23,307 bases of DNA from a virus: positions 1 through 23,307 of IMG/VR virus record IMGVR_UViG_3300036851_000288. The stretch is one strand, 5' to 3'. The notes below the pieces were generated by a model. It searched no databases, was not told where the DNA came from, and saw only the letters and a program-made list of their open reading frames with translations. Below are positions 2,197 to 22,950 of the stretch, in pieces; position 1 is the first letter of the stretch; every line of letters starts with the position of its first letter. The position numbers and the translations under genes were made by a program.

Positions 2197-2222
2197 CGCG
2201 CACCTCCCTGTGGAATGCCGAA

Positions 2223-2275: not shown

Positions 2276-2298
2276 CCTGTGAGCGGTGCCGTGTAATC

Positions 2299-2973: not shown

Positions 2974-2980
2974 TAGACGA

Positions 2981-3831: not shown

Positions 3832-5219
3832 TCGACTGCGACCATCTTTCCCGTCCGGACCGCCGGTGGCTTGGCGCCATCCTTGAGCCACGAGCCCGCG
3901 TAGTGGTGCAGGCCGAAGGCCCACGGGTTGAGCTTGCGCGTCATCGGATCGGCCATCTTGGCGTCGCGCTCGGGATCGCGGTAGTGGACAGGGTAGAACG
4001 CACTCGGTGGCAGCAGGATCACGTCACGGCGCCCAACGAGGACCTCGGTGGTGACGCCGGGGCCCGCCGGCCATACGTCGCCGGGGATACGCGAGAGCGC
4101 GAGGTCGAGGCACTCGCGGATGGCCGGGTGCCCTGGCACCGCACCCATGACCGCATTCGGCACGGTCCGGTGATCCTCCCACGCCGCGAACGCCGACAGG
4201 GGCAGTAGCTCATCGAACGCGCGCCAGGGCTCGACATCGGAGTCGACGTAGATGCCACCGAAGCGGAGCAACGCCTCAAGGCGGACGAGGTCGGCAAGCT
4301 GCGCGCCGGTCGAGCACGCCTCCCACTTGTGCGCGGTGTCGGGCCACTCGGCAGGATCGAGCGGGTCGCGCCAGGTGCGAAGCTCCCAATCCGGGTGCAG
4401 GTCGGCGAAGCGATCCCACCATCGCTCGACCTCGGCGCTCGTGTGCTCGGGCACGACCCGATGCAGGACGGGCGGGATGCCCGTTGGCCTGTGCTCGAAT
4501 GAGGGGGTCGCTAGGTCGCGGATCGCGCGGATCGCGTCGGGGTTGCCCTTGGCTTCGAGATACAGGCCCGCGCGGCGCCCGTTGCGGGTGTGGGTCGCGG
4601 TGCCTCGCTTGCCCTCGCGTGCCGTCTCGTGCCACAGGTGCCATAGCTCGCCCGGCAGCTTGTCGATCGGGGCGCCTGCGAACGTCTCGCACGCGGCCGC
4701 GAATGCGTTGTCCTCGAACCCCCACCCGACGAACGACTCGTCGAACCCGCCGACCGCATCCCACAGGCGCCGCGGGACCACGATGCAGGCCGAGCACATG
4801 TCGGTGTAGCTCTTGTGGACGTAGCGCGACCAGTTGCCACGAAAGCCGCCCATGACCGCGTCGGAGCCCGGACGGTCGATGTCCTTGCGCACGGTGAACG
4901 GCATCGTAAGGCGGCCCGTCTCGTGGGCCCGGGCGATTGCCTGGCGTACATGGTCGGGATCGCATATGACGTCCGCGTCGATGATGACCGCGACGTCCCA
5001 CGGCTGCACGTGCTCCCAATCGGCCAGGCGGGCAGCACGGTTGACGGCGGCCGAGCGATTGAACAGGCCGACGTCATGATGGCCCTCGACGATTTCGTAG
5101 CCGAGGTTCGTTCGCCACCACTCATCGACCCACGCCCACACGCGATCACGGTCGGGCTTGCCGGCCCGGCGGGGCACGAGGATCACGACCCGTAGGTCGT
5201 GGTCGAACGTCTCAGACAT
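3828..5219 (-). CDS. Two-domain glycosyltransferase: GT-A (GT2/GT27-like) fused to GT32-like
   Basis: This 463-residue protein carries two sugar transferase domains. Residues 1-235 look like a GT-A enzyme with the metal-binding DAD (81-83) and the galactosyltransferase-type GGFDESFVGWGFEDN (157-171), in which W-G-x-E-D is the base/acceptor motif. Residues 245-455 look like the DXD-sugar family (GT32): HRVVPE (253-258), ADLVRLEALLRFGGIYVD (309-326) and DSD (326-328), followed by a late GLHHYAGSW (GT32 enzymes often have a similar H-x-x-x-x-S-W end). It could add two consecutive sugars. The ATG at 5219 overlaps the upstream stop by 8 nt and has GGGAGGG just before it. Substrates are unknown. 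Confidence 0.88.
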   Translation of the reverse strand: MSETFDHDLRVVILVPRRAGKPDRDRVWAWVDEWWRTNLGYEIVEGHHDVGLFNRSAAVNRAARLADWEHVQPWDVAVIIDADVICDPDHVRQAIARAHETGRLTMPFTVRKDIDRPGSDAVMGGFRGNWSRYVHKSYTDMCSACIVVPRRLWDAVGGFDESFVGWGFEDNAFAAACETFAGAPIDKLPGELWHLWHETAREGKRGTATHTRNGRRAGLYLEAKGNPDAIRAIRDLATPSFEHRPTGIPPVLHRVVPEHTSAEVERWWDRFADLHPDWELRTWRDPLDPAEWPDTAHKWEACSTGAQLADLVRLEALLRFGGIYVDSDVEPWRAFDELLPLSAFAAWEDHRTVPNAVMGAVPGHPAIRECLDLALSRIPGDVWPAGPGVTTEVLVGRRDVILLPPSAFYPVHYRDPERDAKMADPMTRKLNPWAFGLHHYAGSWLKDGAKPPAVRTGKMVAVE

Positions 5220-7951: not shown

Positions 7952-8941
7952 TTAGCTGCCGGACTCGATTTCGAGGTTCTCCGCGAGGACCGCGTAGTTC
8001 GGCTCGGCGTGCTTGACGTCGAACCGGACGGTCGGCAGGAACGAGGTCGCGCCCTCCCGCGGATCGCGGAACTTCTCGATCCGGACCCGGCGGTGCCAGC
8101 CGATGATCGTGTTCTTGGGATCGGTCAACCACGCGAACGTGCTGTAGTCGATCGCGCTGCCGTTGATCGTGTCATCGCCCGACAGGAGCGGGACCACCAC
8201 GACCGGGACGCCCCGGTAGCGCAGCGGGAACCTGTCGGTCGTGGCCGTGTCGCCGAGCGGCGTGGCGCGCTCCTGCAATTCGTCGTGGTAGACGTCCGCC
8301 ACGACCTGCGGCACGTAGAACCGCAGGTTCTGATACGAGCGCCGGTACCGGGTCGGCAGCGCGGCGATCATCCGGCGGAATAGGTCGGACGAGGACGTCT
8401 CGCCCGTCGCGTCGAGGATTTGCGCGGCGGGCAGGTTGTCCTGATACGACGCGATGATCCCGTCGAACTGGTCGAGGGTCGAGTCCTCGGCGCCCGTCCG
8501 ATCGGTGTCGGACTTGATGGCGATTTCCTCGACGTCGCGACCCGTCGCCTCGGCGATCATCGTCATGAGCGTGTCAGCGTTCGCCTCGCGCTCGACGTTG
8601 TCCTCGAACCACTCGTCGGAGACGAGCACCTCGCCCTTGAACAGGGCGGTCGAGAGGGTGACGAGGCCGGTGGCCGGCTTCTTTCGATCGGCGTCGACGA
8701 GGCGCTGCGCCTCGGTGCCGTTGCGCAGGAGCCGATCGTTGAGGCTGATCCGCGGAACCTCGAACCGCGTCGACAGGCTGAACTCCTGGCGAAGCTCGGA
8801 CACGAGGACCGACTGCTCCATGACCATCCGCAGGAACGTGCGGACCTGCTCAGGGGAGAGCAAGCCGCCGTTGGACCCGCCGGACAGGTCGGCCGATGTC
8901 AATGTGGCTCGTTCGAGCCACTGCCGCACTCGTGCAGGCAT
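7952..8941 (-). CDS. Major capsid protein (HK97 fold)
   Basis: This 329-residue protein has the layout of a small HK97-fold major capsid protein without a protease-processed delta domain. It opens with a helical N-arm (MPARVRQWLERATLTSADLS), a long helix with Q-S-V-L-V-S-E-L-R-Q (about 43-52), and an E-loop/strand region FEVPRISLNDRLLRNGTEAQ. The P-domain helix segment is VSDEWFEDNVEREANADTLM, and FYVPQVVADVYHDELQERAT (about 207-226) resembles the spine helix/A-domain. The C-terminal A-domain strand follows (YRGVPVVVVPLLSGDD). ATG 8941 follows AGGAGGGG at the right distance. It lies directly after the scaffold-like gene, the usual order, and is closed by an intrinsic terminator. It forms the icosahedral head shell. 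Confidence 0.87.
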   Translation of the reverse strand: MPARVRQWLERATLTSADLSGGSNGGLLSPEQVRTFLRMVMEQSVLVSELRQEFSLSTRFEVPRISLNDRLLRNGTEAQRLVDADRKKPATGLVTLSTALFKGEVLVSDEWFEDNVEREANADTLMTMIAEATGRDVEEIAIKSDTDRTGAEDSTLDQFDGIIASYQDNLPAAQILDATGETSSSDLFRRMIAALPTRYRRSYQNLRFYVPQVVADVYHDELQERATPLGDTATTDRFPLRYRGVPVVVVPLLSGDDTINGSAIDYSTFAWLTDPKNTIIGWHRRVRIEKFRDPREGATSFLPTVRFDVKHAEPNYAVLAENLEIESGS

Positions 8942-11509: not shown

Positions 11510-11887
11510 CTACGCCTTCCCCCGACCGAGCGCACGACCTAACCCGAGGAGCGCCAGGACCACGACAAGGCCGCTCGTGACCGCCGCCATCGCGATCGGC
11601 CAGACGGTCACGAGCCCATCGGTCAGCAGGAGCATCACGAGCGACGGCTTGACCGGAGGCGACGACGGGAGCATCGCCTCGATCAACGGAGCCACCACCG
11701 CGCGATCCTCGACATCCTCAGCCGCGACCCAGCGCGGACACGGCTCATCGACCCACACCATGCCCTCGCGCGGTGCAGGTACGCGAGGCGCGGTCATCAG
11801 GGCATCTCGCATCCGCAGGATCGCCGGCTCCCAGGGCTCGTCGCGCAGATACGCGCGCCGCATATCCTCCTCGGTCACCGGGCTCAC
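11510..11887 (-). CDS. Hypothetical C-terminal membrane protein
   Basis: The 125-residue protein starts at GTG 11887, overlapping the stop of the 2H-XkdF gene by 4 nt. Residues 1-75 are soluble and acidic with two Trp-containing segments (DEPWEPAILRMRDAL, GMVWVDEPCPRWVAAEDVED). Residues 82-117 are hydrophobic with one or two membrane helices (LVMLLLTDGLVTVWPIAMAA, then SGLVVVLALLGLG), ending in a basic GRGKA tail that would face the cytoplasm. No family is recognised. It heads the run of membrane and exported proteins inside the head module. Confidence 0.65.
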   Translation of the reverse strand: MSPVTEEDMRRAYLRDEPWEPAILRMRDALMTAPRVPAPREGMVWVDEPCPRWVAAEDVEDRAVVAPLIEAMLPSSPPVKPSLVMLLLTDGLVTVWPIAMAAVTSGLVVVLALLGLGRALGRGKA

Positions 11888-13455
11888 GTGGGCACCTCGC
11901 GGAACGCGTAGCCCTGCATCGACCAGCCGGTCAATTCGCCCGACTCGATCCGCGGCCACGCCTCCTCGGACCAGACCGCGCCCACGAGCCAATCGCCGGG
12001 CTCGATCTTCTGATCCTCGATCGCCCACGTCGGGCCCCGGTAGATGTAGCTCTCGACCACGGTCGCGGCGCCGCCTGTGCCGTCCTTGTGCATCATCCCG
12101 ATGTCGGGCTTCTGCATGAACGCCCACGCCGCGGCCTCGACCTCCTCGGGGGTCATGTAATCGCCGTGGGAGTCGGTATTGTCCTTGGCCTTGCGGGTCC
12201 CGATCCGGCTCGCGGGATACGCGACGCCGAGCGTGTATCGCTGTGGCTTGTCGGCCTTGACCACGCGGTAGCGCGCCTGGTCGGCGTCGGCCTTGGCGAC
12301 GGGCGGCCGCATCCGGCTCCGACGCATCGCCTCGAACGACCGCTCGACCCAGGTGTGCCAGTCGAGGACCTCGTCACCTGTGTCGACAAGCATGACCGGC
12401 GCCTGGCCCTCGGCCTTGACCGTCCACACGATCGCGTCGTCACCATCGCGGGCCCAATCGAGGAGGGTCGCCTCGACCTCGCGCTCGTCGTCACCCGCGA
12501 GCACCTCGGCAGCTTTCGCGACCACGGCCTCGGCGCGCTCGGCGTCGGCCTTGGCGAGCGCGGCGTTGGCGGCCGCCTTGAGCTTGGCCTGCGCCTTGGC
12601 CTTGAGTTCAGCCGAGAGCTTGGTCTGCGGCAGGCGTGAGAGCGCGTTGCGCAGGTGCGGCAGGTCGACCTTGCCCGAGGCGTCCTTGTACGGCAGGTGA
12701 CGCAACGAGCGCGGCGTCGTCTTGCCGTCCTCGTCTTTCTCGCCTCCGGGCTCGATGACCGCGAACGAGGAGTCGGGCAGGTCGTTGATGAACGCCGCCG
12801 ACCATTCGGCCTTAGCGACCGCGATCGAGGAGCCCGGCGCGACGTCGGCGCCACTGAACAGGTAGTGCCGGCGCTCGTCGCCGATCGCGAAGGTGAGCCG
12901 GTCAATTCGCACCGGGATCGTGGGAACCTCGGGTAGCTCGCCCGATCCGTAGGCAAGGGTCACGTGCGGCGTGAAATCGTGCTCGGGCTGATCGCCTGCC
13001 GGCCGCATCGCCATGTGGTCGTACCCGATGTAGCAGACCTCCTCGTACAGACGATTGAGCCCGGGCGCATCGAGCGTCGCGTACACGACGTCGGCCCCGC
13101 CCGCCTGGTCGCCGTTGAACCGCCCGACTCCTGAGATGTTGCCCACGAGGACCGGGTGCGACTCGGCCGCGCGCTCGACCGCCGCCGCCCATTCCTCGAT
13201 CTGGCGAGGCGTCACGTCGGCCGCGCTGCTGGCGAGCACCCGGAGTGTCAGGTGCAGGTCGTTGACCGGGACCCCGCCCGGCTGCGCGAGTTCGGCCGCG
13301 ACCTCCGATGGCAGGAATAGCGCGATCATCACGCCGTCGTTGTTCTGCGCCTTGCGGGTCAGGCTCCGGACGACGTCTCGGAACACGCGCCGGACGAGGC
13401 CCGGCTCCTCGGTTGTGACGGTCACGTTCGGCACCTCGATCCGGTGGGCCCCCAC
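11884..13455 (-). CDS. 2H phosphoesterase-like domain fused to an XkdF-type domain
   Basis: This 523-residue protein has at least two domains. Residues about 40-215 form a 2H (LigT/CPD-like) fold with both H-x-T motifs (HLTLRV at 68-73, HVTLAY at 164-169); such enzymes hydrolyse or ligate 2',3'-cyclic phosphates. A middle part (216-330) has W-S-A-A-F-I-N-D-L-P-D-S-S-F and a long Lys/Ala helix. The C-terminus (about 400-523) matches phage XkdF, a putative protease domain of head operons: QRYTLGVAYPASRIGTRK, GDYMTPEEVEAAAWAFMQKP, then DWLVGAVWSEEAWPRIESGE and GWSMQGYAF. It would sit in the usual place of a prohead protease. GTG 13455 is used; GTG 13434 or 13425 could be real, since no ribosome site decides. 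Confidence 0.82.
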   Translation of the reverse strand: MGAHRIEVPNVTVTTEEPGLVRRVFRDVVRSLTRKAQNNDGVMIALFLPSEVAAELAQPGGVPVNDLHLTLRVLASSAADVTPRQIEEWAAAVERAAESHPVLVGNISGVGRFNGDQAGGADVVYATLDAPGLNRLYEEVCYIGYDHMAMRPAGDQPEHDFTPHVTLAYGSGELPEVPTIPVRIDRLTFAIGDERRHYLFSGADVAPGSSIAVAKAEWSAAFINDLPDSSFAVIEPGGEKDEDGKTTPRSLRHLPYKDASGKVDLPHLRNALSRLPQTKLSAELKAKAQAKLKAAANAALAKADAERAEAVVAKAAEVLAGDDEREVEATLLDWARDGDDAIVWTVKAEGQAPVMLVDTGDEVLDWHTWVERSFEAMRRSRMRPPVAKADADQARYRVVKADKPQRYTLGVAYPASRIGTRKAKDNTDSHGDYMTPEEVEAAAWAFMQKPDIGMMHKDGTGGAATVVESYIYRGPTWAIEDQKIEPGDWLVGAVWSEEAWPRIESGELTGWSMQGYAFREVPT

Positions 13456-13473: not shown

Positions 13474-13482
13474 ATCGTACCA
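13474..13482 (-). promoter_or_regulatory. Extended -10 promoter for the leftward head operon
   Basis: TGGTACGAT (minus strand, 13482-13474) matches the extended -10 seen at 7348-7340 (TGnTACGAT). Transcription would begin near 13466, about 11 nt before GTG 13455, giving a very short leader. It lies back-to-back with the rightward promoter, whose -35 starts 24 bp away. Confidence 0.45.
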
Positions 13483-13505
13483 TCGGCCGCTAGTGCGATT
13501 GCCGC

Positions 13506-13534
13506 TTGCACTGTCTGTATCATCGTGATACGCT
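13506..13534 (+). promoter_or_regulatory. Rightward promoter A of the plus-strand cassette
   Basis: TTGCAC (-35, 13506-13511), a 17-bp spacer and TACGCT (-10, 13529-13534) with an extended TG-A just before the -10. The same architecture and much of the same sequence recur at 17152-17180. A start near 13541 would place a 6-bp hairpin (13543-13548 / 13554-13559) at the mRNA 5' end, then AGGAGG and ATG 13585. Confidence 0.75.
13517..13531. promoter_or_regulatory. Operator A: perfect inverted repeat in promoter A
   Basis: GTATCATCGTGATAC is a perfect palindrome (6-bp arms, 3-bp centre) filling the spacer and the first bases of the -10. A dimeric repressor bound here would block RNA polymerase. 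It may also affect the leftward promoter nearby. Confidence 0.65.
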
Positions 13535-13584
13535 ACGTGTGTCGGCGGTCGATCCGCCGGGCTCCGACTCCGCAGGAGGTACCA

Positions 13585-13968
13585 ATGGCCCGTTCTCCCG
13601 CTTCCCGCCCCGTGGTCCCGGCCTCGATGCTGGCCGGCGCGGCGGCCCTATTTGCCGCGGACCGCGCGGTGACCTCGGTCCACTACGCCGTCGACGGCGG
13701 GTTCGCCGCGGTCATGCGGACGGATGCCGGCCCGATGGTCGTGCCGGTCCTGTTCGGAACGGACGCGGCAGCCGCCTCGTTCGCCTCGTTCCTGGCCTCG
13801 ATCCCCGCGGATGTCGTGGCCCGTCGGGTCACGTACGACCTGTGCGGGTGGTGCGACAATCCGCGGTCCGCCGCGTGCCATCGCCCCGGCTATCGGACTC
13901 CGCCCTCGCCGTACGCGGTCGCGCGGTGCCCGTTCGTCGACCCCGCCATGACGGGCGGTGCGGCGTGA
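13585..13968 (+). CDS. Hypothetical protein with Cys/His motif, first gene of cassette A
   Basis: This 127-residue protein starts at ATG 13585, 5 nt after AGGAGG. The first half (MARSPASRPVVPASMLAGAA, then SVHYAVDGGFAAVMRTDAG) is a small alpha/beta region. The C-terminal part has CGWCDNPRSAACHRPGYRTP with C-x-x-C, a further Cys-His and a late Cys, likely a zinc-binding treble-clef or knuckle. No known family. As the first gene after an operator-controlled promoter it should be among the earliest products. It overlaps the next gene by 4 nt. Confidence 0.68.
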   Translation: MARSPASRPVVPASMLAGAAALFAADRAVTSVHYAVDGGFAAVMRTDAGPMVVPVLFGTDAAAASFASFLASIPADVVARRVTYDLCGWCDNPRSAACHRPGYRTPPSPYAVARCPFVDPAMTGGAA

Positions 13969-14204
13969 CCGCCGCGATCCGGACGATGCGCTCGTTCGGC
14001 GCCCGCTATCCCCTCCTCGACCTTGGCGACGGGCCCCGGATGTGGCACGTGGACGTGCCCGACGCCCCGCACTCGACTGCTGCCGTCAAGGCGGCTCGGA
14101 CCGCGGCCGACCTCCGCGGCTTCGACGTTCGCGACGTTGTCGGCGCCAAGCGCAACGGAGCCGGCGTGTTCGTCGTGACGATGATCGTGAGGGCCGCGAA
14201 ATGA
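13965..14204 (+). CDS. Hypothetical small alpha/beta protein
   Basis: This 79-residue protein starts at GTG 13965, overlapping the previous stop (GTGA), and ends with ATGA into the next gene. It has strand-like MWHVDVPDAP, the helix STAAVKAARTAADLRGFDV and a final strand GAGVFVVTMIVRA: a compact beta-alpha-beta unit. No motif is recognised. The second half (VVGAKRNGAGVFVVTM) is basic. Confidence 0.62.
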   Translation: MTAAIRTMRSFGARYPLLDLGDGPRMWHVDVPDAPHSTAAVKAARTAADLRGFDVRDVVGAKRNGAGVFVVTMIVRAAK

Positions 14205-14422
14205 CACTCCCGTCTTGGCTCCGAGGATCGGCCCCGTCCTATGGGCGCCCGATCCCGCTCGGCTCCGGTGGTACGGTCGTGATCCGCTCGACCCCGGTCG
14301 GCGCGTTCAAGCCGTCCGGCCGGCGCGTCTCGGTCCGGCCCGCTCCGGACCCCCTGGCCGTGTCGATGTCTCCGGTCCCTGGCTGGCGCGCCGATGCTGC
14401 CCCACTGGCCCGGGCCGCGTGA
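14201..14422 (+). CDS. Hypothetical basic protein
   Basis: ATG 14201 overlaps the previous stop by 4 nt and TGA 14422 overlaps the next ATG by one base. The 73 residues are Pro-, Arg- and Ser-rich (MTLPSWLRGSAPSYGRPIPL at the start) with a few strands and no hydrophobic core typical of a folded enzyme. It may be partly disordered. The exact overlaps support it; the function is unknown. Confidence 0.55.
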   Translation: MTLPSWLRGSAPSYGRPIPLGSGGTVVIRSTPVGAFKPSGRRVSVRPAPDPLAVSMSPVPGWRADAAPLARAA

Positions 14423-14742
14423 TGTACTCGCCTCACGACGGACCCCACGCCGGCGGCGACCTGGCCGGCTGCCATTTCTGCCGTTCGATCGCCGACGACA
14501 TCGTGCGCCGGCGGCTCGGTGTCGCTACGCGCCACTGGTACGTGTCCGCGATCAACGGGCGCTCGAAGCGCCTCATCGCGGGCCCCTTCGATGATGCGGG
14601 CGACGCGATCGCCGCGGTCGGCCCGAGCAAGGCCCGCGTCATGACCGACTACGCGACCGATCCCCGGGCCACGATGGCGAGCTTCGGCATCGCCTCCTCG
14701 ATCGGCGACCCTATGCCAACCCTGTACGGAGGTGCCACGTGA
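14422..14742 (+). CDS. Hypothetical protein with CxxC zinc pair
   Basis: This 106-residue protein begins at ATG 14422 (TGATG overlap) and reads MYSPHDGPHAGGDLAGCHFC, with the first C-x-x-C close to histidines that may complete a zinc site. It continues with helix (RSIADDIVRRRLG), strand (HWYVSAINGRSKRLIAGPFD), helix (AGDAIAAV) and a tail. The strand part resembles short phage proteins with W-Y-V-S...G-P-F-D-D-A, an alpha/beta nucleic-acid-associated layout. No function can be given. Confidence 0.6.
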   Translation: MYSPHDGPHAGGDLAGCHFCRSIADDIVRRRLGVATRHWYVSAINGRSKRLIAGPFDDAGDAIAAVGPSKARVMTDYATDPRATMASFGIASSIGDPMPTLYGGAT

Positions 14743-15047
14743 AACGCCCCGGCCACACTTATCGCATCCACGATTTCAAGATCGCGGGCAGGCCGCTCGT
14801 CTTGGCCTTCGATCCCGACGCACGAGGTGGGATGTACTCGCCTCGGGTGAGCGTCCACTGGAACACGCGCCCGGGCGGATGGTCCGGCCGCGGCTACATC
14901 GGCGGCCATTCCGTCTCGGTCGACCTGCCGCACCTGTCATTCGCCACGGCGTTCAAGCTGCGCCGGTTCGGCGCCCTGCGCGCCTACTCGGCGATGGCTC
15001 GGCTGATCTATTGGCTGTTCAACGGCCGGACAGGAGGCACACGATGA
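14739..15047 (+). CDS. Hypothetical protein
   Basis: This 102-residue protein starts at GTG 14739, overlapping the previous stop by 4 nt; GGAGG at 14729-14733 supports it. It is rich in Tyr, Arg and Gly with strands (TYRIHDFKIAGRPLVLAFDP, RVSVHWNTR, GRGYIGGHSVSVDLP) and a C-terminal helix (FATAFKLRRFGALRAYSAMA). A mixed beta-sheet/helix protein of unknown function. Confidence 0.6.
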   Translation: MKRPGHTYRIHDFKIAGRPLVLAFDPDARGGMYSPRVSVHWNTRPGGWSGRGYIGGHSVSVDLPHLSFATAFKLRRFGALRAYSAMARLIYWLFNGRTGGTR

Positions 15048-15352
15048 CCGCCGACACATCCGCGTGGCGGGCCCGGACCCAAACCGAGCACATCCTCAAC
15101 ATCGCCGCTGCGCTCGACACCGCGGCCAAGCTGACGGTCCTTGGCGACGCGGAGGACCGCAATCCCGACTACTACTACCGCGCCGCGGACGCCGCCCTGG
15201 CGGACCTTCACGAGTCGCCGAGCATCGCCCGCCTGCGGGCCGCGGTCCTGTTGCTCGACGGGATCACCGACGTGGATATCCTCGACGCCACGTCGCGCTA
15301 CAGCGACAAGCTGACTGAGGTCCTGCGCCGGGTCGACGACGGAGAACTGTGA
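15044..15352 (+). CDS. Hypothetical helical protein
   Basis: This 102-residue, helix-rich acidic protein starts at ATG 15044, 6 nt after AGGAGG and overlapping the previous stop. Helices: TEHILNIAAALDTAAKLTVL, DYYYRAADAALADLHES, IARLRAAVLLLDGI and YSDKLTEVLRRV. The NPDYYYRAAD segment is distinctive but I cannot link it to a known family. It may be a small scaffold or inhibitor protein. Confidence 0.62.
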   Translation: MTADTSAWRARTQTEHILNIAAALDTAAKLTVLGDAEDRNPDYYYRAADAALADLHESPSIARLRAAVLLLDGITDVDILDATSRYSDKLTEVLRRVDDGEL

Positions 15353-15438
15353 TGGGACGGTCACTCGATCCCAACCGAGCACCGGCGCGCGCGTTGGCCG
15401 AGCGGCGCCAGGAACGACGGACGGCCCGCAATGGCTGA
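15352..15438 (+). CDS. Tiny arginine-rich ORF (28 aa)
   Basis: ATG 15352 overlaps the previous stop by one base (TGATG), and TGA 15436-15438 ends inside the next gene's start (8-nt overlap). The 28 residues (MGRSLDPNRAPARALAERRQ onward) are 29% arginine. It bridges two genes without a gap, which favours real translation, but 28 residues alone are weak evidence. It may serve as a coupling leader. Confidence 0.45.
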   Translation: MGRSLDPNRAPARALAERRQERRTARNG

Positions 15439-15943
15439 CCGATCCGCGGCTGCCGAGGTGCGCAACCCGCTCCTCGGCCTCCCAGCCGTCGCCTCGATCC
15501 GGGCGCTCCCGCTCGAATGCCGGGCGCCCCTGGCCGAGCTTCTGCGTCAGGTCGCCGAGGAGGCCGACCGAAAGGCCGAGGCGGCATGGGCCAAGCGCAA
15601 GGGCCCAATGGCCGCCTACTGGCGAGCGACGTGCACCTACGCGAAGCACACCGCGCGGGCGATCGTCACGCCGGCCGAACGGCAATCACTCCGCGGCGAA
15701 CGGCCACCACGAGCACCGCGGGCGCGGACGCGTGCCCGCGTGCCGTGCCAGGAGACAGTGCGCGATCGAGGCACAGGCCACGACCGGCCCTGCCCCAACC
15801 GGGCGCGCTGGCGCGTCCAGGCATACGGATGGACCCGAAACCTGTGCGCCGTGCATGGTCGTCGCTACGCGGCTCGGGGGAAGGCATTCGGGACTAGCGA
15901 ACTCGGACTGCTCGGGGTCCACCCGATCGAGGCTGTGGCATGA
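15431..15943 (+). CDS. Hypothetical protein with C-terminal zinc-finger-like motif
   Basis: This 170-residue protein has a helical N-terminal half (LAELLRQVAEEADRKAEAAW, then AKRKGPMAAYWRATCTYAKH) and a basic C-terminal part with C-x(n)-C (VPCQETV, DRPCPNRARW) and NLCAVHGRRYAARG, four Cys/His ligands in zinc-ribbon order. It may bind nucleic acid through the latter. It starts at ATG 15431 without a strong ribosome site, inside the end of the previous small ORF. Overlaps the next gene by 4 nt. Confidence 0.62.
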   Translation: MADRSAAAEVRNPLLGLPAVASIRALPLECRAPLAELLRQVAEEADRKAEAAWAKRKGPMAAYWRATCTYAKHTARAIVTPAERQSLRGERPPRAPRARTRARVPCQETVRDRGTGHDRPCPNRARWRVQAYGWTRNLCAVHGRRYAARGKAFGTSELGLLGVHPIEAVA

Positions 15944-16386
15944 ACCGCTACGGCTACGTCGAGGTGAGCGTGTCCCGCGAGTTCGTCGCCACCCACCCCG
16001 CGCCCCGCCGGGAGGTGCGTCGGCAGGCGCGCCTGACGCTCGCCGAGGAGCGCCTGCCGCAAAGCCCGATCATCTGGCGGATCACCCCCGACGAGGACGG
16101 CGTGCGGTTCACGGTCCGCGGATTTGTCGGGCGCGATCGCATCGTTGGCGCAGACCTCGTCCGCAATCGCCGGCGCTGGCCTGAGTTGAGTTCGGCGAGC
16201 CCGTGTTGGTCTTGCGGGCTGCCCGGGCTCCGAATGGCCCGCATCGCGTCGGCGCCGCTGGTCGCGGCACTCTTGCCAGGCGATGACCCGGTGCCGATCG
16301 CCACGGTCGACGCATGCCCTCGGCACCGGCGGCCGCTCTTGCGGCTCGCGGCGACATACCGACGTGACCCGAGGGTGCGGGGATGA
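15940..16386 (+). CDS. Hypothetical protein with zinc-ribbon motif
   Basis: The 148-residue protein opens MNRYGYVEVSVSREFVATHP, followed by a basic helix (RREVRRQARLTLAEERL), a beta region (SPIIWRITPDEDGVRFTVRG), then PCWSCGLPGLRMARIA and DACPRHRRPLLRLA, giving C-x-x-C and C-x-x-H ligands for one zinc. The layout, an alpha/beta domain with a C-terminal finger, suggests a small regulator or nucleic-acid-binding protein. It overlaps both neighbours by 4 nt. Confidence 0.62.
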   Translation: MNRYGYVEVSVSREFVATHPAPRREVRRQARLTLAEERLPQSPIIWRITPDEDGVRFTVRGFVGRDRIVGADLVRNRRRWPELSSASPCWSCGLPGLRMARIASAPLVAALLPGDDPVPIATVDACPRHRRPLLRLAATYRRDPRVRG

Positions 16387-17174
16387 TCGCCAGGCGCCAC
16401 CTCCCGTCCGACGCGCTCTCGCTCGTCGGGCTCATCGTCATCGTGTTCGCCGCGCACGCCATGGCAGCGGACCCGCGAGCGGTCGACGTGCACGCCTATT
16501 GGGTCGCCGACTACGCGATCGCCCACGGCTCCGACGACGCGTTCGTCTACCCACCACCCGCGTACCTCGTGGCGCAGCTTGCGGGCGCCCTGCCCTGGCC
16601 CGTGTTCCGCGAGGGCTACGCGATCGCCAACGCGATCCTCGTGTGGGTCCTCGCGGGCCCGCTCACGATCGTCGCGGCGTTCGTGCCTCACGTCGTCGGA
16701 GAGCTTCGCCTCGGCAACGTGCACATCCTCCTCGGGTTCGTCGCGGTCATGGGCATGCGCTGGCCGGCCCTGTGGTCGATCGCGCTCCTGACCAAGGTCA
16801 CGCCAGGCATCGGCGTCCTGTATTTCGCGTTCGCGGGCGAATGGCGAAAGCTGGCGATCGCCCTCGGCGTCACGGCCGCGATCGCGCTGCCTACGCTGAT
16901 CCTCGCGCCCGGCCTGTGGGCCGCGTGGCTCGGGGTCCTGACGTCCTCGCCCGACGTGTCGGGCTCGATCAAGCTCGCGGTCCGGCTGCCGATCGCGGTC
17001 GCGATCCTGTTCGTCGGTGCGAGGCGAGGCTGGCCGTGGGTCGTGCCGATCGCGTCCATGCTCGCGCTGCCCGTCGTGTGGATACATTCGCCCGCGATGC
17101 TCGTTGGGCTCGCCTGGTACTTACGGCGGATCGGGCCCATACGATTGCCCCTTGCACGTCCTGTATCGGTTTGA
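16383..17174 (+). CDS. GT87-like (DUF2029) membrane glycosyltransferase, short form
   Basis: This 263-residue, very hydrophobic protein has seven to nine predicted membrane helices. It matches the GT87 family of polyprenyl-phosphate-mannose (or arabinose)-dependent transferases: early Asp-rich loop AVDVHAYW (34-41), YPPPAYLVAQLAGALPWPVF, RLGNVHILLGFVAVMGMRWP (the family's G-Q/N-V-x-x-L-L helix) and ALLTKVTPGIGVLYFAFAGE (K-x-x-P). Family members are usually 380-450 residues, so about a third is missing, probably at the C-terminus. It is the last gene of cassette A, and its final codons encode operator B (17163-17177). It may transfer a lipid-linked sugar at the membrane. Confidence 0.75.
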   Translation: MIARRHLPSDALSLVGLIVIVFAAHAMAADPRAVDVHAYWVADYAIAHGSDDAFVYPPPAYLVAQLAGALPWPVFREGYAIANAILVWVLAGPLTIVAAFVPHVVGELRLGNVHILLGFVAVMGMRWPALWSIALLTKVTPGIGVLYFAFAGEWRKLAIALGVTAAIALPTLILAPGLWAAWLGVLTSSPDVSGSIKLAVRLPIAVAILFVGARRGWPWVVPIASMLALPVVWIHSPAMLVGLAWYLRRIGPIRLPLARPVSV

Positions 17175-17180
17175 TACACT
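17152..17180 (+). promoter_or_regulatory. Rightward promoter B, second copy of promoter A
   Basis: TTGCAC (-35, 17152-17157), a 17-bp spacer and TACACT (-10, 17175-17180) with the extended TG-A, plus upstream GATTGCC and downstream GGGCTCCG shared with promoter A. A 7-bp hairpin (CCGGGAG 17188-17194 / CTCCCGG 17202-17208) lies in the leader before AGGAGG and ATG 17237. Confidence 0.75.
17163..17177. promoter_or_regulatory. Operator B: inverted repeat in promoter B
   Basis: GTATCGGTTTGATAC has 5-bp arms (GTATC/GATAC) and a 5-bp centre, at the same position relative to -35 and -10 as operator A. The sixth arm base is mismatched, so it may bind the regulator more weakly. It overlaps the last codons of the GT87-like gene. 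Confidence 0.6.
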
Positions 17181-17236
17181 AGCCATGCCGGGAGGCCCTC
17201 TCTCCCGGGCTCCGCAGGTGCTACAGGAGGTCCAGC

Positions 17237-17833
17237 ATGACGACCACCGCCCCGGCCAGACATCCGGTCTGGCGCAAGGCGACCACTGACGGATACGTCA
17301 CCACGGCCGATACCGCGCGGTTGATCCGCGACGCGCTCGGGGCTAAGTTCCCCGGCGTCAAGTTCTACGTCCGGTCCCACATGTACGCGGGCGGGTCCTC
17401 GATCCACGTCTACTATGACGGGCTCGACCACTACGCCCCGATGACCCACTGCTATTGCACCGACGGGCCCGATCCGGACCTGCCGCACTCCCCGAACTAC
17501 TGCCGTCGGTGCGGCTACATGGCCCGGCTCGATCCCGTCTACAAGGACGGGGCCCCGGCCAAGAGTGCCGTCGACGCGGTCGCCGCGACGTACGCGGGCG
17601 GACGGTTCGACGGGATGATCGACATGGCCTACTCGGTCAAGTCGTGGCTGAACCCGGACGGCTCGGCGACCTACGGCTCGTCGAGCGGCACGACCGGCTC
17701 GATGGGAGTCGATCCGGCCTACTCGAACCCTCGGCCCGATCCCGGCGCCGTGATGGTCCGGTTCGGAGCCGACTACGTGTTCGTCGACGACACACTGCCG
17801 TACGACGTCGCGAGGAAGCGAGGCGCCGCATGA
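17237..17833 (+). CDS. LPD29-like domain protein with Cys insertion
   Basis: This 198-residue protein starts at ATG 17237 after AGGAGG. The segments VTTADTARLIRDALGAKFPG (21-40), VKFYVRSHMYAGGSSIHVYY (41-60) and later GGRFDGMIDMAY (121-132) match large-polyvalent-protein-associated domain 29 (LPD29), known from phages and conjugative elements, where such domains are thought to help the invading DNA establish itself; the biochemical role is not settled. Between the two LPD29 parts is a Cys-rich insertion (HCYCTDG at 71-77, YCRRCGYMA at 88-96) with two C-pairs, a likely zinc ribbon. First gene under promoter B. Overlaps the next gene by 4 nt. Confidence 0.72.
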   Translation: MTTTAPARHPVWRKATTDGYVTTADTARLIRDALGAKFPGVKFYVRSHMYAGGSSIHVYYDGLDHYAPMTHCYCTDGPDPDLPHSPNYCRRCGYMARLDPVYKDGAPAKSAVDAVAATYAGGRFDGMIDMAYSVKSWLNPDGSATYGSSSGTTGSMGVDPAYSNPRPDPGAVMVRFGADYVFVDDTLPYDVARKRGAA

Positions 17834-18090
17834 ACGACAAATGCAAGAGCCGGACCGCGCTTGCCGGCCTCCCGGCCCCGACCCTCTTGGCGCCGCGCTG
17901 GCGCCGCGGTACGCGGTGGTGCGCCTCGTGCGGCGATTTCCACATGCCGGACGCCCATCCCCCGGTTCGAGATGTCCTCGGCCTCCGTGGCGCGCCCGCG
18001 GACGTGTGGTGCTCGATGTGCCCCGCCCCGAGCACCACGACCGTCGGCAACGATGCACGGTGCGATGACCACGTCGGCGGTGCGCCATGA
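17830..18090 (+). CDS. Hypothetical protein with two CxxC pairs
   Basis: This 86-residue protein starts at ATG 17830 (4-nt overlap with the previous stop). A basic N-terminus (about 1-28) precedes TRWCASCGDFHMPDAHPP and DVWCSMCPAP, two C-x-x-C pairs with histidines between and after them. It looks like a small zinc-binding protein, perhaps DNA- or RNA-binding. No family assignment is possible. Confidence 0.62.
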   Translation: MNDKCKSRTALAGLPAPTLLAPRWRRGTRWCASCGDFHMPDAHPPVRDVLGLRGAPADVWCSMCPAPSTTTVGNDARCDDHVGGAP

Positions 18091-18608
18091 GCCGCCGCCG
18101 GCATACCGTCCACAATCACGCCGAGGTCGTCGCGCGGGCGGTCGAGAGCGCACGGAGCTACGCCAGCGCGTTTCACGACGAGCCCGCCACGCTTCGCGAT
18201 CGCCTCGCGTTTGCCGAGGAGATGGCCTCGAAGCTGCGCGACCTGGCCGGCGCATGGCGCGCGCTCCGGGCCAAGTACAAGCCCGGCGAGGAACTCGCCA
18301 CCATCGCGAGCCGGGCCAACAAGGCGGCCTCGGCTCGTGCGGCCGCCAAATACGACCGCCAGGCCGACGTCTACGAGGCCGAAGCTGCGATCTTCCGAGA
18401 GGCCCTCGGAGCCATCAAGGTCGGCGATCGCGTCCGCCAGTCGGGCGCGATCTACCTCATCGGCACCGTCCGCCGACTGCTTCGGGCCAACGAGTTCTAC
18501 CACCGACGAGCCGAGGTCGAGTGGGACACCGGGCGCGTCGAGACACTCGCCGCTCACGTGCTCGTCAAAGACGATGGCGACGCATCCGCAGGAGGTACCA
18601 ACCCATGA
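18087..18608 (+). CDS. Hypothetical coiled-coil protein with SH3-like C-terminus
   Basis: This 173-residue protein starts at ATG 18087 (4-nt overlap). Residues 5-110 are mostly helices with many Ala, Arg and Glu (ESARSYASAFHDEP, DRLAFAEEMASKLRDLAGAW, YDRQADVYEAEAAIFREALG). Residues about 110-165 read IKVGDRVRQSGAIYLIGTVR and HRRAEVEWDTGRVETLAAHV, a small beta-barrel pattern like KOW/SH3 domains that follow V-G-D-x-V. No named family is recognised. Confidence 0.63.
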   Translation: MSRRRHTVHNHAEVVARAVESARSYASAFHDEPATLRDRLAFAEEMASKLRDLAGAWRALRAKYKPGEELATIASRANKAASARAAAKYDRQADVYEAEAAIFREALGAIKVGDRVRQSGAIYLIGTVRRLLRANEFYHRRAEVEWDTGRVETLAAHVLVKDDGDASAGGTNP

Positions 18609-19141
18609 CCATCGAGGAGAGCTACGACCAAGCGTTCGCGCGACTGTCACGCGAGAACGACGAATACGAGGCCCGCCAGCGGCCGATCCGCGAGCGGCTT
18701 GAGGCGTTCGACGAGTCAACGCCGCGGGTCGTCTACCGCGAGCCGCGATACGCGAGCTACAGGATGATCCGCCTCGCCGATGTGCGATGGGTGCCGGCGC
18801 ACACGGCCGATGTCCACGTGCTCACGTCGCGCGGGTTCAAGCCGCGCAAGGAACGCGTCGCTGACACGGTCCGGCTCATCGACCCCGGCCACGTCCGGCA
18901 CGTGATCCCGACGGAGACGAGCACCTACGTCCGCCGACCAACGGCGAAGCACCTCGCCAGGATCGAGGCCGCCGAAGCGGCGATCGCCGCGGCGCGGGCC
19001 GAACTCAAGGCGGCGGAGCGCGCCGCGTTCACCTACGGCAAGCCGATCCCGCTCTCGACGATCAAGCGGATCACGAGGGAGCGCGACGCGATCGCCAAGG
19101 ACAACCGGACCGACGAGGCGATCGTCAGGGACGCCGACTGA
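18605..19141 (+). CDS. Hypothetical helical protein
   Basis: This 178-residue protein starts at ATG 18605; AGGAGG is 9 nt upstream within a 17-bp sequence (18585-18601) identical to the ribosome site of the first cassette gene. The N-terminus (MTIEESYDQAFARLSRENDE) and the 118-145 part (EAAEAAIAAARAELKAAERA) are helices/coiled coil. A central basic strand region lies between them (RMIRLADVRWVPAHTADVHV). No known domain is recognised. It shares one base with the next start (TGATG), so it is coupled to the Mini-A-like gene and may partner it. Confidence 0.6.
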   Translation: MTIEESYDQAFARLSRENDEYEARQRPIRERLEAFDESTPRVVYREPRYASYRMIRLADVRWVPAHTADVHVLTSRGFKPRKERVADTVRLIDPGHVRHVIPTETSTYVRRPTAKHLARIEAAEAAIAAARAELKAAERAAFTYGKPIPLSTIKRITRERDAIAKDNRTDEAIVRDAD

Positions 19142-20121
19142 TGCCGCTCATCACCTACATCCCAAAGACGTTCAGCGAGGACCACACCCTCGTCATCGAC
19201 CGGGCGACCGCGATCGCGCGCGAGTACGCCCGCACAGGCGACGACCTGACCCTCCGGCAGCTTTACTACCAGTTTGTCGCCCGCGATTTCGTTCCGAACA
19301 AGACGACCGAGTACAAGCGGCTCGGCTCGATCCTCAACGACGCCAGGCTCGCGGGTGAGTTTGATTGGTCCTACCTGACCGACATCACGCGGAACCTCCG
19401 CGGCGGTGACGGCGGCAACGAGGAGCCGATCGAGGTCATCGACCCCAACGCGTTCTACGTCGAGGGTTGGAAGGGCCAGCCACATCGGGTCGAGGTGTGG
19501 GTCGAGAAAGACGCCCTAGTCCGAGTCATCGGGCGCGCCGCGCAGCCCGAGCGGGTCGCCTATTTCTCGTGCCGCGGCTACACATCGTCGTCCGAGCTTT
19601 GGTCGGCGGCGCAGCGCATTGAGCGGGTCCTCGACACAGACGACGTCGAGGACATGACGATCCTGCACCTCGGCGACCACGACCCCTCGGGGATCGACAT
19701 GACCCGCGACATCCGGACGCGGCTCGAACTGTTCCTCGACGGCGACGGGTATGACATCGACCGGCTAACCATCGAGCGGATCGCGCTCAACATGGACCAA
19801 GTCCGCCGGTACAACCCGCCACCGAACCCGGCTAAGGAAACGGACTCTCGGCACACCGGCTACGAGGCGCGCTTCGGGTCGTCATCGTGGGAGCTTGACG
19901 CACTCGACCCGCCCACCCTGCGGGCACTGATCCGCGAGCACATCCGCGCATTGCGAAACGAGGCCCTGTGGGAGGGCCAGCTACGGATCGAGCGCAAAGG
20001 CGAGGCCGTCCTCGAAGCGATCCGCGAGCACTACACGGACGTCGTCGCGTACCTCGATGAGCACGGATGGGCGGCGGCCACTGACGACGATGACGAGACG
20101 GAGGACGATGATGACGATTGA
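19141..20121 (+). CDS. Spo11/topoisomerase VI A-like protein (Mini-A type)
   Basis: This 326-residue protein combines a winged-helix part with LTLRQLYYQFVARDFVPNK (36-54), where Y42 or Y43 matches the DNA-attacking tyrosine of Spo11/TopoVI-A (R-x-x-Y-Y), and a Toprim domain: VEVWVEKDALV (117-127, E122) and LHLGDHDPSGIDM (176-188, D179 and D181), the metal-binding E...D-x-D set. It is as long as a TopoVI A subunit core but no B (ATPase) gene is visible. Stand-alone A-like proteins of phages and plasmids are called Mini-A; their function is unknown, though DNA nicking, breakage or replication roles are proposed. The C-terminus is a run of acidic residues (DDDDETEDDDDD). Confidence 0.83.
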   Translation: MPLITYIPKTFSEDHTLVIDRATAIAREYARTGDDLTLRQLYYQFVARDFVPNKTTEYKRLGSILNDARLAGEFDWSYLTDITRNLRGGDGGNEEPIEVIDPNAFYVEGWKGQPHRVEVWVEKDALVRVIGRAAQPERVAYFSCRGYTSSSELWSAAQRIERVLDTDDVEDMTILHLGDHDPSGIDMTRDIRTRLELFLDGDGYDIDRLTIERIALNMDQVRRYNPPPNPAKETDSRHTGYEARFGSSSWELDALDPPTLRALIREHIRALRNEALWEGQLRIERKGEAVLEAIREHYTDVVAYLDEHGWAAATDDDDETEDDDDD

Positions 20122-20449
20122 CCCGCGCCACCCGAAGATGATGCCCGGCCAGGCGCCGTACACCCCGGGCGAGCTTGACATCCTGTACGGGATGGTCCGC
20201 GTGGCGGCCGCCGGCGATCCCGGCGAGGGCATCGAGGAGCGCGACGCATTCCTCGACCTCGACGATACCCACAATCACCACGACGATCGGGACGCGCCGG
20301 CGGACCCGAACGACTGCCCGGGCTGCGCTCGTGGCGTCGAGCGCGCCGGCGGCGATCGTTCCCCCTGGCCTACGCGTCGGGCCGTCGACGTCGCCCGCGA
20401 GCTTGACGAGTCACTCAGCCACCTTGCAGCGATGAGGCCCAACCGATGA
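20111..20449 (+). CDS. Hypothetical acidic protein with CxxC
   Basis: ATG 20111 is preferred over ATG 20108 because GGAGG (20100-20104) then has normal spacing; it overlaps the previous gene by 11 nt. The 112 residues start with a Pro/Met-rich stretch (MTIDPRHPKMMPGQAPYTPG), then helix (ELDILYGMVRVAAAG), a His/Asp-rich stretch (DDTHNHHDDRD) and NDCPGCARG with C-x-x-C; the histidines could share a metal. No family is recognised. Confidence 0.6.
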   Translation: MTIDPRHPKMMPGQAPYTPGELDILYGMVRVAAAGDPGEGIEERDAFLDLDDTHNHHDDRDAPADPNDCPGCARGVERAGGDRSPWPTRRAVDVARELDESLSHLAAMRPNR

Positions 20450-20682
20450 TCCGCGCATCCATCCCAGGATCGGGACACGAACTCCGAACCGAGTTACCCC
20501 GAGGCGAACGTCTCAACGAGCACCTCCGCGAGATGTTCGACTCGGGCCCCGAACTCGTCGACGTGTTCCTCGCCGAACTGCTCGCGCGAGGGTTCGAGGT
20601 CATGCTCTCGCCCGCAGCCGCGGTCCGGCACGTCGCCCCACCCACCGAGAGCGAGGAGAGGATGAGTCATGGCGACCGCTGA
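20446..20682 (+). CDS. Hypothetical small protein
   Basis: The 78-residue product starts at ATG 20446 (ATGA overlap). The middle, RLNEHLREMFDSGPELVDVF and LAELLARGFEVMLSPA, is two helices with a turn; the ends are polar. It overlaps the next gene by 14 nt. Nothing identifies the function. Confidence 0.55.
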   Translation: MIRASIPGSGHELRTELPRGERLNEHLREMFDSGPELVDVFLAELLARGFEVMLSPAAAVRHVAPPTESEERMSHGDR

Positions 20683-20866
20683 CCGAGCCCGACTCATCGC
20701 GGCCGGCAAGCGTCACGCGACCGCACAGACCAAGCTCGACGAACTGCGAGCCGCGCTCGACGCCGAAATCCGCCAGGCACGGGCGGGCGGCCTCTCCGTC
20801 CGTGAGGTCGCGAGCCTAGCCGGCGTCCCGATCGCCACCGTCCAGCGGGCGGAGCGGCCAGGATGA
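20669..20866 (+). CDS. Small helix-turn-helix protein
   Basis: The 65-residue protein begins at ATG 20669 (GAGAGG upstream). A helical first half (RLIAAGKRHATAQTKLDELR) is followed by a likely HTH: GGLSVREVASLAGVPIATVQ, with the turn at A-G-V and recognition helix I-A-T-V-Q-R. The layout (helix plus HTH of about 25 residues) is typical of small phage DNA-binding proteins. It could be a candidate for recognising the repeated operators. Overlaps the next gene by 4 nt. Confidence 0.62.
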   Translation: MATADRARLIAAGKRHATAQTKLDELRAALDAEIRQARAGGLSVREVASLAGVPIATVQRAERPG

Positions 20867-21105
20867 CGCGCCTGGCCGATCGTGAGCGCGAGGTGCTCCT
20901 CGGGATTTGGGAGGCCGACGGCGACATCGAGGTCGTCGTCCGGCGCCTCGGGATCACCATGAGTACGGCCAGGACCCACACACTCAACGCACGTCGCAAG
21001 CTCGGCGTGCAGACAACCCTCGCAGCCATCCGGCATGTCTTGACCGCCGAGGCCGAGGGCCCGACACTCGGAGTACGAGATGGCAACCCCCTATCCGTGG
21101 ACTGA
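20863..21105 (+). CDS. LuxR-type HTH (GerE-like) DNA-binding protein
   Basis: This 80-residue protein starts at ATG 20863 (4-nt overlap). Residues 3-60 match the LuxR/GerE four-helix HTH: LADREREVLLGIWEADGDIE, then VVRRLGITMSTARTHTLNAR (recognition helix) and RKLGVQTTLAAIRHVLTAE. No N-terminal sensor or receiver domain is present, so it is a free-standing DNA-binding domain. Such proteins in phages can switch transcription. It may regulate the promoters at 13506 and 17152, but nothing shows its site. Confidence 0.74.
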   Translation: MTRLADREREVLLGIWEADGDIEVVVRRLGITMSTARTHTLNARRKLGVQTTLAAIRHVLTAEAEGPTLGVRDGNPLSVD

Positions 21106-21352
21106 TCCCTCGATGCCCTGGTACGCGCGCCTCGTCGATGGCGAGGGCACGACCTACGCGATCGCGCGCCAGGTACCCGGACCCCGAGGCATCCTCCACG
21201 AGGTTCTGAGTCGGGACGATCCGACTACCTGGCGGCCGACTTTCGAGGGGCCCGCCTATTTCACCGGCGCAGGCGGCGTCACCAACGCCGAGCCGATCGA
21301 CCCGACCACCGCGGGCACGATCGTCGCGTCGTGGGGCGGCGGCGCAGCCTAG
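21080..21352 (+). CDS. Hypothetical protein at the convergent end of the cassette
   Basis: This 90-residue protein starts at ATG 21080, 5 nt after GGAGTACGAG, and overlaps the LuxR-like gene by 26 nt. It starts MATPYPWTDPSMPWYARLVD, then beta-rich GTTYAIARQVPGPRGILHEV, and ends in TTAGTIVASWGGGAA. It has no motif I recognise. Its stop codon shares CTAG (21349-21352) with the stop of the MuF gene on the opposite strand. It could be an immunity protein for the MuF toxin-like tail only by position, which is speculation. Confidence 0.58.
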   Translation: MATPYPWTDPSMPWYARLVDGEGTTYAIARQVPGPRGILHEVLSRDDPTTWRPTFEGPAYFTGAGGVTNAEPIDPTTAGTIVASWGGGAA

Positions 21353-22950
21353 ATATCGGGGAACACCTCGGGCAGGAACGGGTCGCCGAGCGGTCCTTCG
21401 ATGCCGCGCCAAATCGAGGTTAGCTCCTCGACAAGTTGTGCCTTGCGCTCCGTCTCCTCGGGTCGGAGCGCTCGGTATTCCTCGTACGCCTTGTGGCTCG
21501 CCCGACCCCACGGTCCGGCCGTGTTCTTTCGAGCAAACGACTCAGGCGTGTGGAACTGTAGCTCGAACCGCGTCCCGCTCGGCGAGCGCCAGGCGGTATT
21601 GACGTCCTTATTGAGCGGGTTCGGCCAGTTGTTCTGCCATTTGATCGGCTTATACCCCGCGGCCCGCAGGGCACCGTGCACCGTCGTCGCGCTCTGCCAG
21701 TAGGTACCGCGGTCGTGCATGAAGGTGTAGCGCAGGGCATCGCGGACCTTGGCTGCCTCCTCGATCGGGGCGCCGTCGGCGAGGTCGCCGAGTATCTTGT
21801 CGACCGTCCGCTCGTTGTCAGCCTTGAGCCGGTACGCGATCCCTTCGAGCCGACCGACTCCCTGAGCTTCGAGGCCCTGTAGCAGCGCGGTCGTCTCGGG
21901 CTCCGCTTCGCGCGCCTCATTGAACACCCGCGCCTGAATGGCCCGAGCGTTCGTCTCGACCGGCGTGCGCGGACCCGCCTGTGGCCCGACCTGCGGCCGT
22001 GGGACGACCTGGCCGCCTGGCGCGCCCGCTGGCGGAGCGCCGGCGACGACGGCGCCGAATGCTCGCTGACAGTGAGGGTGCGAGAGCGGGTTGGCACGCG
22101 CCTCGGCGATCGGGACGCGCTTGCCGTTGGCGGCCTCCGGATCGGTGTGGGTGGTCCAGCCGCACCCCTCGCCATCGAACACGTTGACCATCTCGACGAG
22201 CCCTGACGCCGCGTAGGCGTTGAGGGTGCCGAGGTTGTACGCCCGGGCCGTCTCGGTGAGGGCGATGAGGTGCGCCCGATCGGTGGTCGTCGCCACGGGC
22301 GCGACTGCCTGCCAGCGGTCGACGATGCCTCGGAGCCCTGCGAACCCGTCGCCCTTGACGCCGCGTGTCAGTTGCTCGACCGAGTATCTCCGCTGGATGG
22401 CCGTCTGGACGGCGTCGGCTAGGTCGTTGCGGCTCGACTCGGTGATCTGCCGCACGTCCCGCCCGATGGCGTCACGGACGCCCTCGCTCAACGTCTCGCG
22501 GAGGCCGGGGTTGATCGCCACGCCGACGTCGTCTGCCACCGCTTCGAGCGCCTCCGCGCCCACATCCTCGTACAGGTCGGACACGACGCCGGCAAGCTCG
22601 CGCTCAAGGCGCGCCCACGCGATCGAGGACTCCTCGAAGTCGCTCGGCCCTGCGCGCCGAATGAACGAGAGCACCGAACGTCGGATCGCCCGACGCTCGA
22701 ACGCGTCGATCGCCTCCTCGGTCGCCTCGGCAAGACTGGCGAGCCACCGGCGGACCGGGCGGACCCAGCGTTCCGCCGTCGCCGGCGACGGCTTCGGCGC
22801 GTCAGCGCGCAGGATCGCGTCTGCCGCCTTGACGAACTCGACCGGGTCGAGTCCGGCGAGGAGGTCATCCTCGGTCGGCGCCGCCGTTCGTCGAGCGAGC
22901 TTGGCGAACCGATCCGGACGCCGGCGCCTGGCGAGGTACGCCGAGGGCAC
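21349..22950 (-). CDS. MuF head-morphogenesis protein with C-terminal RelA/SpoT-like toxin domain
   Basis: This 533-residue protein follows the portal by 2 nt with GTG 22950, the usual place of MuF proteins, which enter the head. Residues about 170-300 carry the MuF pattern: IQRRYSVEQLTRGVK, RAHLIALTETARAYNLGTLN, GCGWTTHTDPEAANGKRVP and LSHPHCQRAFGAVV. A Pro/Gly/Ala linker (302-332) leads to a separate domain (335-520) with VRDALRYTF (402-410), GYKPIKWQNNW (432-442), VNTAWRSPSGTRFELQFHTP (450-469) and SHKAYEEYR (485-493). This order resembles RelA/SpoT synthetase motifs (D-x-x-G-x-R, G-Y-R-S-x-H, E-x-Q-I-R-T, H). Temperate phages are known to carry MuF proteins with such exchangeable toxin tails; an active synthetase is inferred, not shown. 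Confidence 0.78.
   Translation of the reverse strand: MPSAYLARRRRPDRFAKLARRTAAPTEDDLLAGLDPVEFVKAADAILRADAPKPSPATAERWVRPVRRWLASLAEATEEAIDAFERRAIRRSVLSFIRRAGPSDFEESSIAWARLERELAGVVSDLYEDVGAEALEAVADDVGVAINPGLRETLSEGVRDAIGRDVRQITESSRNDLADAVQTAIQRRYSVEQLTRGVKGDGFAGLRGIVDRWQAVAPVATTTDRAHLIALTETARAYNLGTLNAYAASGLVEMVNVFDGEGCGWTTHTDPEAANGKRVPIAEARANPLSHPHCQRAFGAVVAGAPPAGAPGGQVVPRPQVGPQAGPRTPVETNARAIQARVFNEAREAEPETTALLQGLEAQGVGRLEGIAYRLKADNERTVDKILGDLADGAPIEEAAKVRDALRYTFMHDRGTYWQSATTVHGALRAAGYKPIKWQNNWPNPLNKDVNTAWRSPSGTRFELQFHTPESFARKNTAGPWGRASHKAYEEYRALRPEETERKAQLVEELTSIWRGIEGPLGDPFLPEVFPDI

Follow-up and report, generated by a model that had tools for sequence, protein, structure and literature searches.

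A dyad shared by the spacers of two predicted promoters in a high-GC phage fragment: a candidate operator for two operons

Introduction

In phage P22, Arc, a small dimeric ribbon-helix-helix repressor, binds a dyad operator that lies between the -35 and -10 elements of the Pant promoter. In lambdoid phages, the PL and PR promoters with their OL and OR sites place two operons under the same symmetric operator, again within the promoters. Repeated sites of other kinds are found in mycobacteriophages. The stoperators of Cluster A phages (L5 gp71) are asymmetric 13-mers, about 24 in number, most of which do not lie near promoters (PMC5712189), and the start-associated sequence (SAS) of Cluster K phages, GGGATAGGAGCCC, has 13 base pairs (bp), is tied to translation starts and occurs in 11-19 copies, with arms of 17 bp in the extended SAS (ESAS) and a proposed protein-binding or promoter role for both (PMC3203893). 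Here, we examine IMG/VR virus record IMGVR_UViG_3300036851_000288, whose complete 23,307 bases (69% GC) are the window analysed. Two sites on its plus strand share a TTGCAC -35, a 17-nucleotide (nt) spacer, an extended -10 and, inside the spacer, the dyad GTATC-N5-GATAC. On balance, we find them best explained as two co-regulated phage promoters whose spacer dyad would be bound by a dimeric helix-turn-helix (HTH) protein.

How does this locus compare with the systems above? Like P22 Arc/Pant, it has a dyad between the hexamers with matching geometry, the binder here being only a candidate; it is not a member of that system, as the candidates are HTH proteins whereas Arc is a ribbon-helix-helix protein, there are two promoters, and the operator sequence is unrelated. 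It resembles lambdoid PL/PR in having two operons that share a symmetric candidate operator inside their promoters, but has no tandem operators, no CI/Cro found in the window, and promoters that are co-directional rather than divergent. With the Cluster A operator/stoperator system it has in common a high-GC phage, an operator (here a candidate) overlapping a promoter that is early (here probably so) and a site repeated in the genome, and it falls outside that system in having a symmetric dyad in two copies, both within promoters. Finally, a conserved repeat and an inverted repeat upstream of some gene starts recall SAS/ESAS, from which the locus differs in sequence, copy number and position; both leaders were read directly, and neither GGGATAGGAGCCC nor 17-bp inverted repeats are present upstream of either operon, which places the locus outside this system also. 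Spacer-operator control of two operons is a fairly ordinary type of switch, of which this is a new instance.

Results and discussion

Two copies of one probable promoter

The two TTGCAC/TACNCT sites are, to judge from their sequence, very probably sigma-70-type promoters. Both have a TANNNT -10 with a TG extension (TGA), at a distance of 17 nt from a -35 that starts with TTG. TANNNT is the preferred -10 of the housekeeping sigma factor SigA in the high-GC actinobacterium M. smegmatis (PMC6448022). Aligned on the -35, promoter 1 reads CGATTGCC-G-CTTGCAC-TGT-CTGTATC-ATCG-TGATAC-G-CTA and promoter 2 reads CGATTGCC-C-CTTGCAC-GTC-CTGTATC-GGTT-TGATAC-A-CTA, the copies being conserved blockwise (CGATTGCC, CTTGCAC, CTGTATC, TGATAC and CTA) and divergent in between. 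The CGATTGCC block just upstream of the -35 is thus kept in both. Every element that a preliminary description of this DNA had listed is present where it had been placed, including the dyad at an identical position in both copies (Table 1), and a search of the rest of the window for GTATC-N5-GATAC inside TTGCAC-N17-TACNCT returned only 13506-13534 and 17152-17180.

The position of the sites within the gene chain, as read from the sequence, argues strongly for promoters and is well supported. In a plus-strand cassette of roughly 20 genes (13585-21352), neighbouring genes overlap by 1-26 nt at the joins checked (one gene start near 20110 is uncertain). The exceptions are two gaps, one of 129 nt ahead of gene 1 and one of 62 nt at 17175-17236. 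The promoters sit at exactly these two gaps, with an ATG and its AGGAGG 50 and 56 nt downstream. The final bases of the preceding GT87 gene fall within promoter 2, and the stop codon TGA of that gene (17172-17174) belongs to the extended -10. Both sequence and gene layout therefore lend good support to the earlier claim of one promoter in two copies, with a common dyad, each starting one plus-strand operon.

Are the matches beyond chance? The pattern TTGCAC-N15..19-TACNCT has 2 matches in the window against 0.01 expected, a statistic that is partly circular, as the pattern was derived from the two copies. A generic pattern that was not tuned to them, TTGNNN-(14-18)-TGNTANNNT, has, with both strands of the window searched, the same two sites as its only matches, and the extended -10 TGNTANNNT is itself rare (6 sites on both strands of 23 kb). 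Among ungapped 41-bp matches on the plus strand of the window, the promoter pair also ranks first, with 31/41 identical positions.

Table 1. Coordinates of the promoter elements, leader elements and genes discussed in the text
Feature	Position	Strand	Details
Upstream block 1	13496-13511	+	CGATTGCC-GC-TTGCAC (conserved block and -35); one base differs from copy 2; GATTGCC 13497-13503
Upstream block 2	17142-17157	+	CGATTGCC-CC-TTGCAC; GATTGCC 17143-17149
Promoter 1	13506-13534	+	-35 TTGCAC 13506-13511; 17-nt spacer; extended -10 TGATACGCT, with TACGCT 13529-13534
Promoter 2	17152-17180	+	-35 TTGCAC 17152-17157; 17-nt spacer; extended -10 TGATACACT, with TACACT 17175-17180
Dyad 1, proposed operator	13517-13531	+	GTATCATCGTGATAC; reads GTATCA-N3-TGATAC
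Dyad 2, proposed operator	17163-17177	+	GTATCGGTTTGATAC; reads TGTATC-N5-GATACA
Leader hairpin 1	13543-13559	+	6-bp stem CGGCGG/CCGCCG; starts at about +3 of the predicted transcript
Leader hairpin 2	17188-17208	+	7-bp perfect stem CCGGGAG/CTCCCGG (8 pairs in the RNAfold structure); starts at about +2 of the predicted transcript
Leader block and Shine-Dalgarno, operon 1	13559-13579	+	GGGCTCCG 13559-13566; AGGAGG 13574-13579
Leader block and Shine-Dalgarno, operon 2	17207-17230	+	GGGCTCCG 17207-17214; AGGAGG 17225-17230
Possible divergent promoter	13474-13482	-	Extended -10 TGGTACGAT without a clear -35; in the 129-nt divergent gap, toward the head-protease operon
Operon 1	13585-17174	+	About 10 overlapping small genes, GT87 membrane protein last
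GT87 family (mannosyltransferase-like) membrane protein	16383-17174	+	Glycosyltransferase-like; last gene of operon 1
Operon 2	17237-21352	+	LPD29-domain protein, topoisomerase-like protein, two HTH proteins
Topoisomerase-like protein	19141-20121	+	phrog_6247; operon 2
Small HTH protein	20669-20866	+	phrog_686/5497; second binder candidate; operon 2
Solitary GerE/LuxR-type HTH protein	20863-21105	+	Favoured dyad-binder candidate; operon 2
Virion structural protein	7952-8941	-	PHROG/Pfam scans
Fused RNA-ligase-like/protease protein	11884-13455	-	PHROG/Pfam scans
Head-morphogenesis protein	21349-22950	-	PHROG/Pfam scans

A dyad in the spacer

The exact dyad occurs in the window only at 13517 and 17163, in both promoters starting 11 nt after the first -35 base, which agrees with the geometry of a spacer operator. 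With 2 mismatches allowed there are 6 in the window, which is the level of chance (mean 4.7). One helical turn (10 bp) separates the centres of the half-sites, a spacing that would be expected for an HTH dimer. The left half, CTGTATC, falls within the spacer, at positions that no promoter element dictates. It is identical in both copies, and the stretches that flank it (3 nt and 4 nt) are completely different between them. At the base composition of the window, a spacer of 14 nt would contain GTATC at some position by chance with a probability of about 0.4% for each promoter. As conserved blocks are separated by diverged bases, the dyad looks selected, and we consider it a probable operator, a prediction of binding made from sequence.

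Several observations weigh against an interpretation as co-regulated promoters with a bound dyad. The -35 agrees with TTGACA at only 3/6 bases. The runner-up among the 41-bp matches reaches 30/41, one below the promoter pair, so that identity would count for little if taken alone. Because TGATAC, the right half of the dyad, overlaps the extended -10, the promoter accounts for that half. There are only two dyad copies, in a fragmentary genome, and we found no relative that shares them. The stability of the whole-leader folds is like that of shuffled sequences (z 0.2 and 0.6). Lastly, the GerE match of the favoured candidate regulator lies slightly under the Pfam cut-off, and naming the binder is a guess.

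The sharing of the GATAC right half with the -10 also suits a simpler origin, in which two ordinary constitutive promoters arose by duplication and the dyad, a by-product of the extended -10 and an inherited spacer, binds nothing. Such a duplication would account for the block similarity, including CGATTGCC and GGGCTCCG. However, the positions without function have diverged (the 3-nt and 4-nt spacer blocks and the leader stems) and the left half-site with its neighbouring CT has not, and we regard this origin as somewhat unlikely.

Candidate regulators

Two proteins encoded in operon 2 are candidates for binding the dyad. The favoured one, the solitary GerE/LuxR-type protein, matches Pfam GerE with an E of 9.9e-5 and a score of 22.3, against a gathering cut-off of 23.5. 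Its structural model has four helices, with a mean predicted local distance difference test score (pLDDT) of only 61, and its top PDB fold match is B. subtilis GerE (1fse; probability 1.00, E 0.02). It thus has the sequence and, in the model, the predicted four-helix fold of a GerE/LuxR-type DNA-binding domain. The second candidate, the small HTH protein, is modelled as a long helix followed by the HTH (pLDDT 90) and matches phage HTH families. That the dyad binder is encoded in operon 2 is a tentative assignment, suggested by these sequences. The preliminary description had proposed a two-operon regulon with its own repressor. A repressor may plausibly act at the dyad, with the two HTH proteins of operon 2 as candidates.

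GerE/LuxR proteins are often activators, and a GerE-like protein is indeed encoded in operon 2. The weak -35 (3/6) and the conserved block immediately upstream of it would also fit promoters of a middle or delayed class that depend on a phage protein, with the dyad and CGATTGCC as activator sites and, for example, the GerE-like protein acting positively. The dyad, however, lies inside a normal 17-nt spacer, which is the position of a repressor site, and we consider positive control improbable. MerR-type activators use a spacer of 19-20 nt; activation of this type was set aside, the spacer here being 17 nt.

PHROG and Pfam scans of this fragmentary window found neither an integrase nor a CI/Cro-like pair, nor any HTH protein in operon 1. 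The lysogeny half of an earlier suggestion, that this is the lysogeny or early switch of the phage, gets no support from these scans, and its early half is possible. Immunity systems typically have operators repeated in their promoters, and with the window being a fragment, a temperate phage could encode outside it a CI-like repressor that binds the dyad. Such an immunity or lysogeny switch is improbable: besides the missing integrase and CI/Cro-like pair, the scans found no other HTH protein beside promoter 1, each promoter has a single dyad, and there is none elsewhere in the window.

Leader hairpins

With the transcript start taken about 7 nt after the -10, a perfect stem follows each predicted start by 1-3 nt, in the same place at both promoters and with unrelated stem sequences. 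A perfect stem of at least 6 bp starting within 0-4 nt is found at 2.1% of positions and is present at both promoters, which, as the folding energies of the whole leaders are unremarkable, is no more than a hint that its placement at the two predicted 5' ends is meaningful. The leader had no match among known RNA families. Hairpins at the 5' end are known as RNA stabilisers, and the simplest reading is that the 5'-terminal hairpin would slow decay.

A model for control of the two operons

In the model that we favour, with two co-regulated promoters and an operator in each spacer, the host holoenzyme would recognise TTGCAC and the extended -10 TGATACnCT at both promoters, probably early. A dimeric HTH protein on GTATC-N5-GATAC, between the hexamers, would then block polymerase at both promoters at once. 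This protein would most likely come from operon 2 (the GerE/LuxR-type protein, or else the small HTH protein), resulting in negative feedback. The transcript would begin almost directly in the hairpin, probably protecting its 5' end. A more specific version is unlikely. In it, each operon of the cassette, which lies inside the head genes, would be started by a standardised module (a promoter with a dyad in its spacer, then a 5'-terminal hairpin whose sequence is free), and the solitary GerE/LuxR-type protein from operon 2 would shut both modules through the dyad.

Search for relatives

The exact composite promoter pattern had no match in IMG/VR. A looser pattern, TTG-N8-GTATC-N4-TGATAC-N2-T, returned 114 stretches, about the number due to chance by a rough estimate; these were mostly low-GC, in varied contexts and in several cases repeated homologous stretches, with no pair of copies like that in the window. 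The upstream block with the -10 pattern matched a single site, present four times in a group of giant phages with 35% GC, which was unconvincing. In GTDB genomes the pattern was seen once, in a draft Dehalococcoidia genome of 44% GC, and we judged this site to be an unrelated two-way promoter. This site (L201:2051-2087) is nearly symmetric, with TTGCAC...TGATACNNT on both strands, and lies between divergent genes.

Searches through the capsid, head-morphogenesis, protease, LPD29 and topoisomerase-like proteins led to distant loci sharing at most 1-2 proteins, none with the promoter, and no phage record resembled the promoter stretches. Neither IMG/VR nor the phage records nor the GTDB genomes yielded a relative close enough for conservation to be compared. 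Another repeated gene-start element was seen in a distantly related phage (L004). There, the two copies of a 64-bp repeat (3315-3378 and 3688-3751, with 94% identity) each end with a Shine-Dalgarno-like sequence and the ATG of a gene.

Genomic setting

The record is probably a genome fragment of an uncultured high-GC phage. Its minus-strand genes encode head and packaging functions (PHROG/Pfam scans), which identifies the contig as a phage. The plus-strand cassette runs in the opposite orientation, with the head-morphogenesis gene on one side of it and the protease gene on the other, and hence transcription of the head genes must either cross the cassette antisense or restart at 13482(-). The extended -10 at that point, a possible divergent promoter, belongs to just three occurrences of TGNTANNNT on the minus strand of the window. 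A scan detected no terminator between operons 1 and 2, so transcripts from promoter 1 may continue into operon 2. Apart from the GT87-family membrane glycosyltransferase, an unusual gene for a phage, the small proteins of operon 1 have no assigned function.

Three further observations concern the minus strand. The fused protein at 11884-13455 has three parts: the N-terminal one resembles a 2'-5' RNA ligase, the middle one (about 211-299) is shared by numerous phage loci, and the C-terminal one is a head protease of the XkdF type (S78_2). The C-terminal part (332-520) of the head-morphogenesis protein is about 33% identical to Streptococcus phage minor head proteins, with the N-terminal part unmatched, and to judge from sequence may be a separate domain. 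At 57-5219, two glycosyltransferase-like proteins and two methyltransferases are encoded close together, perhaps for capsid or DNA decoration.

Conclusion

Thus, we present a clear and cheaply testable promoter-operator pair from an uncultured high-GC phage without close relatives in the collections searched, and our analysis names a specific protein as its candidate regulator. The pair would supply a further example of two phage operons coupled through one spacer operator, leaving the general picture of phage gene control unchanged.

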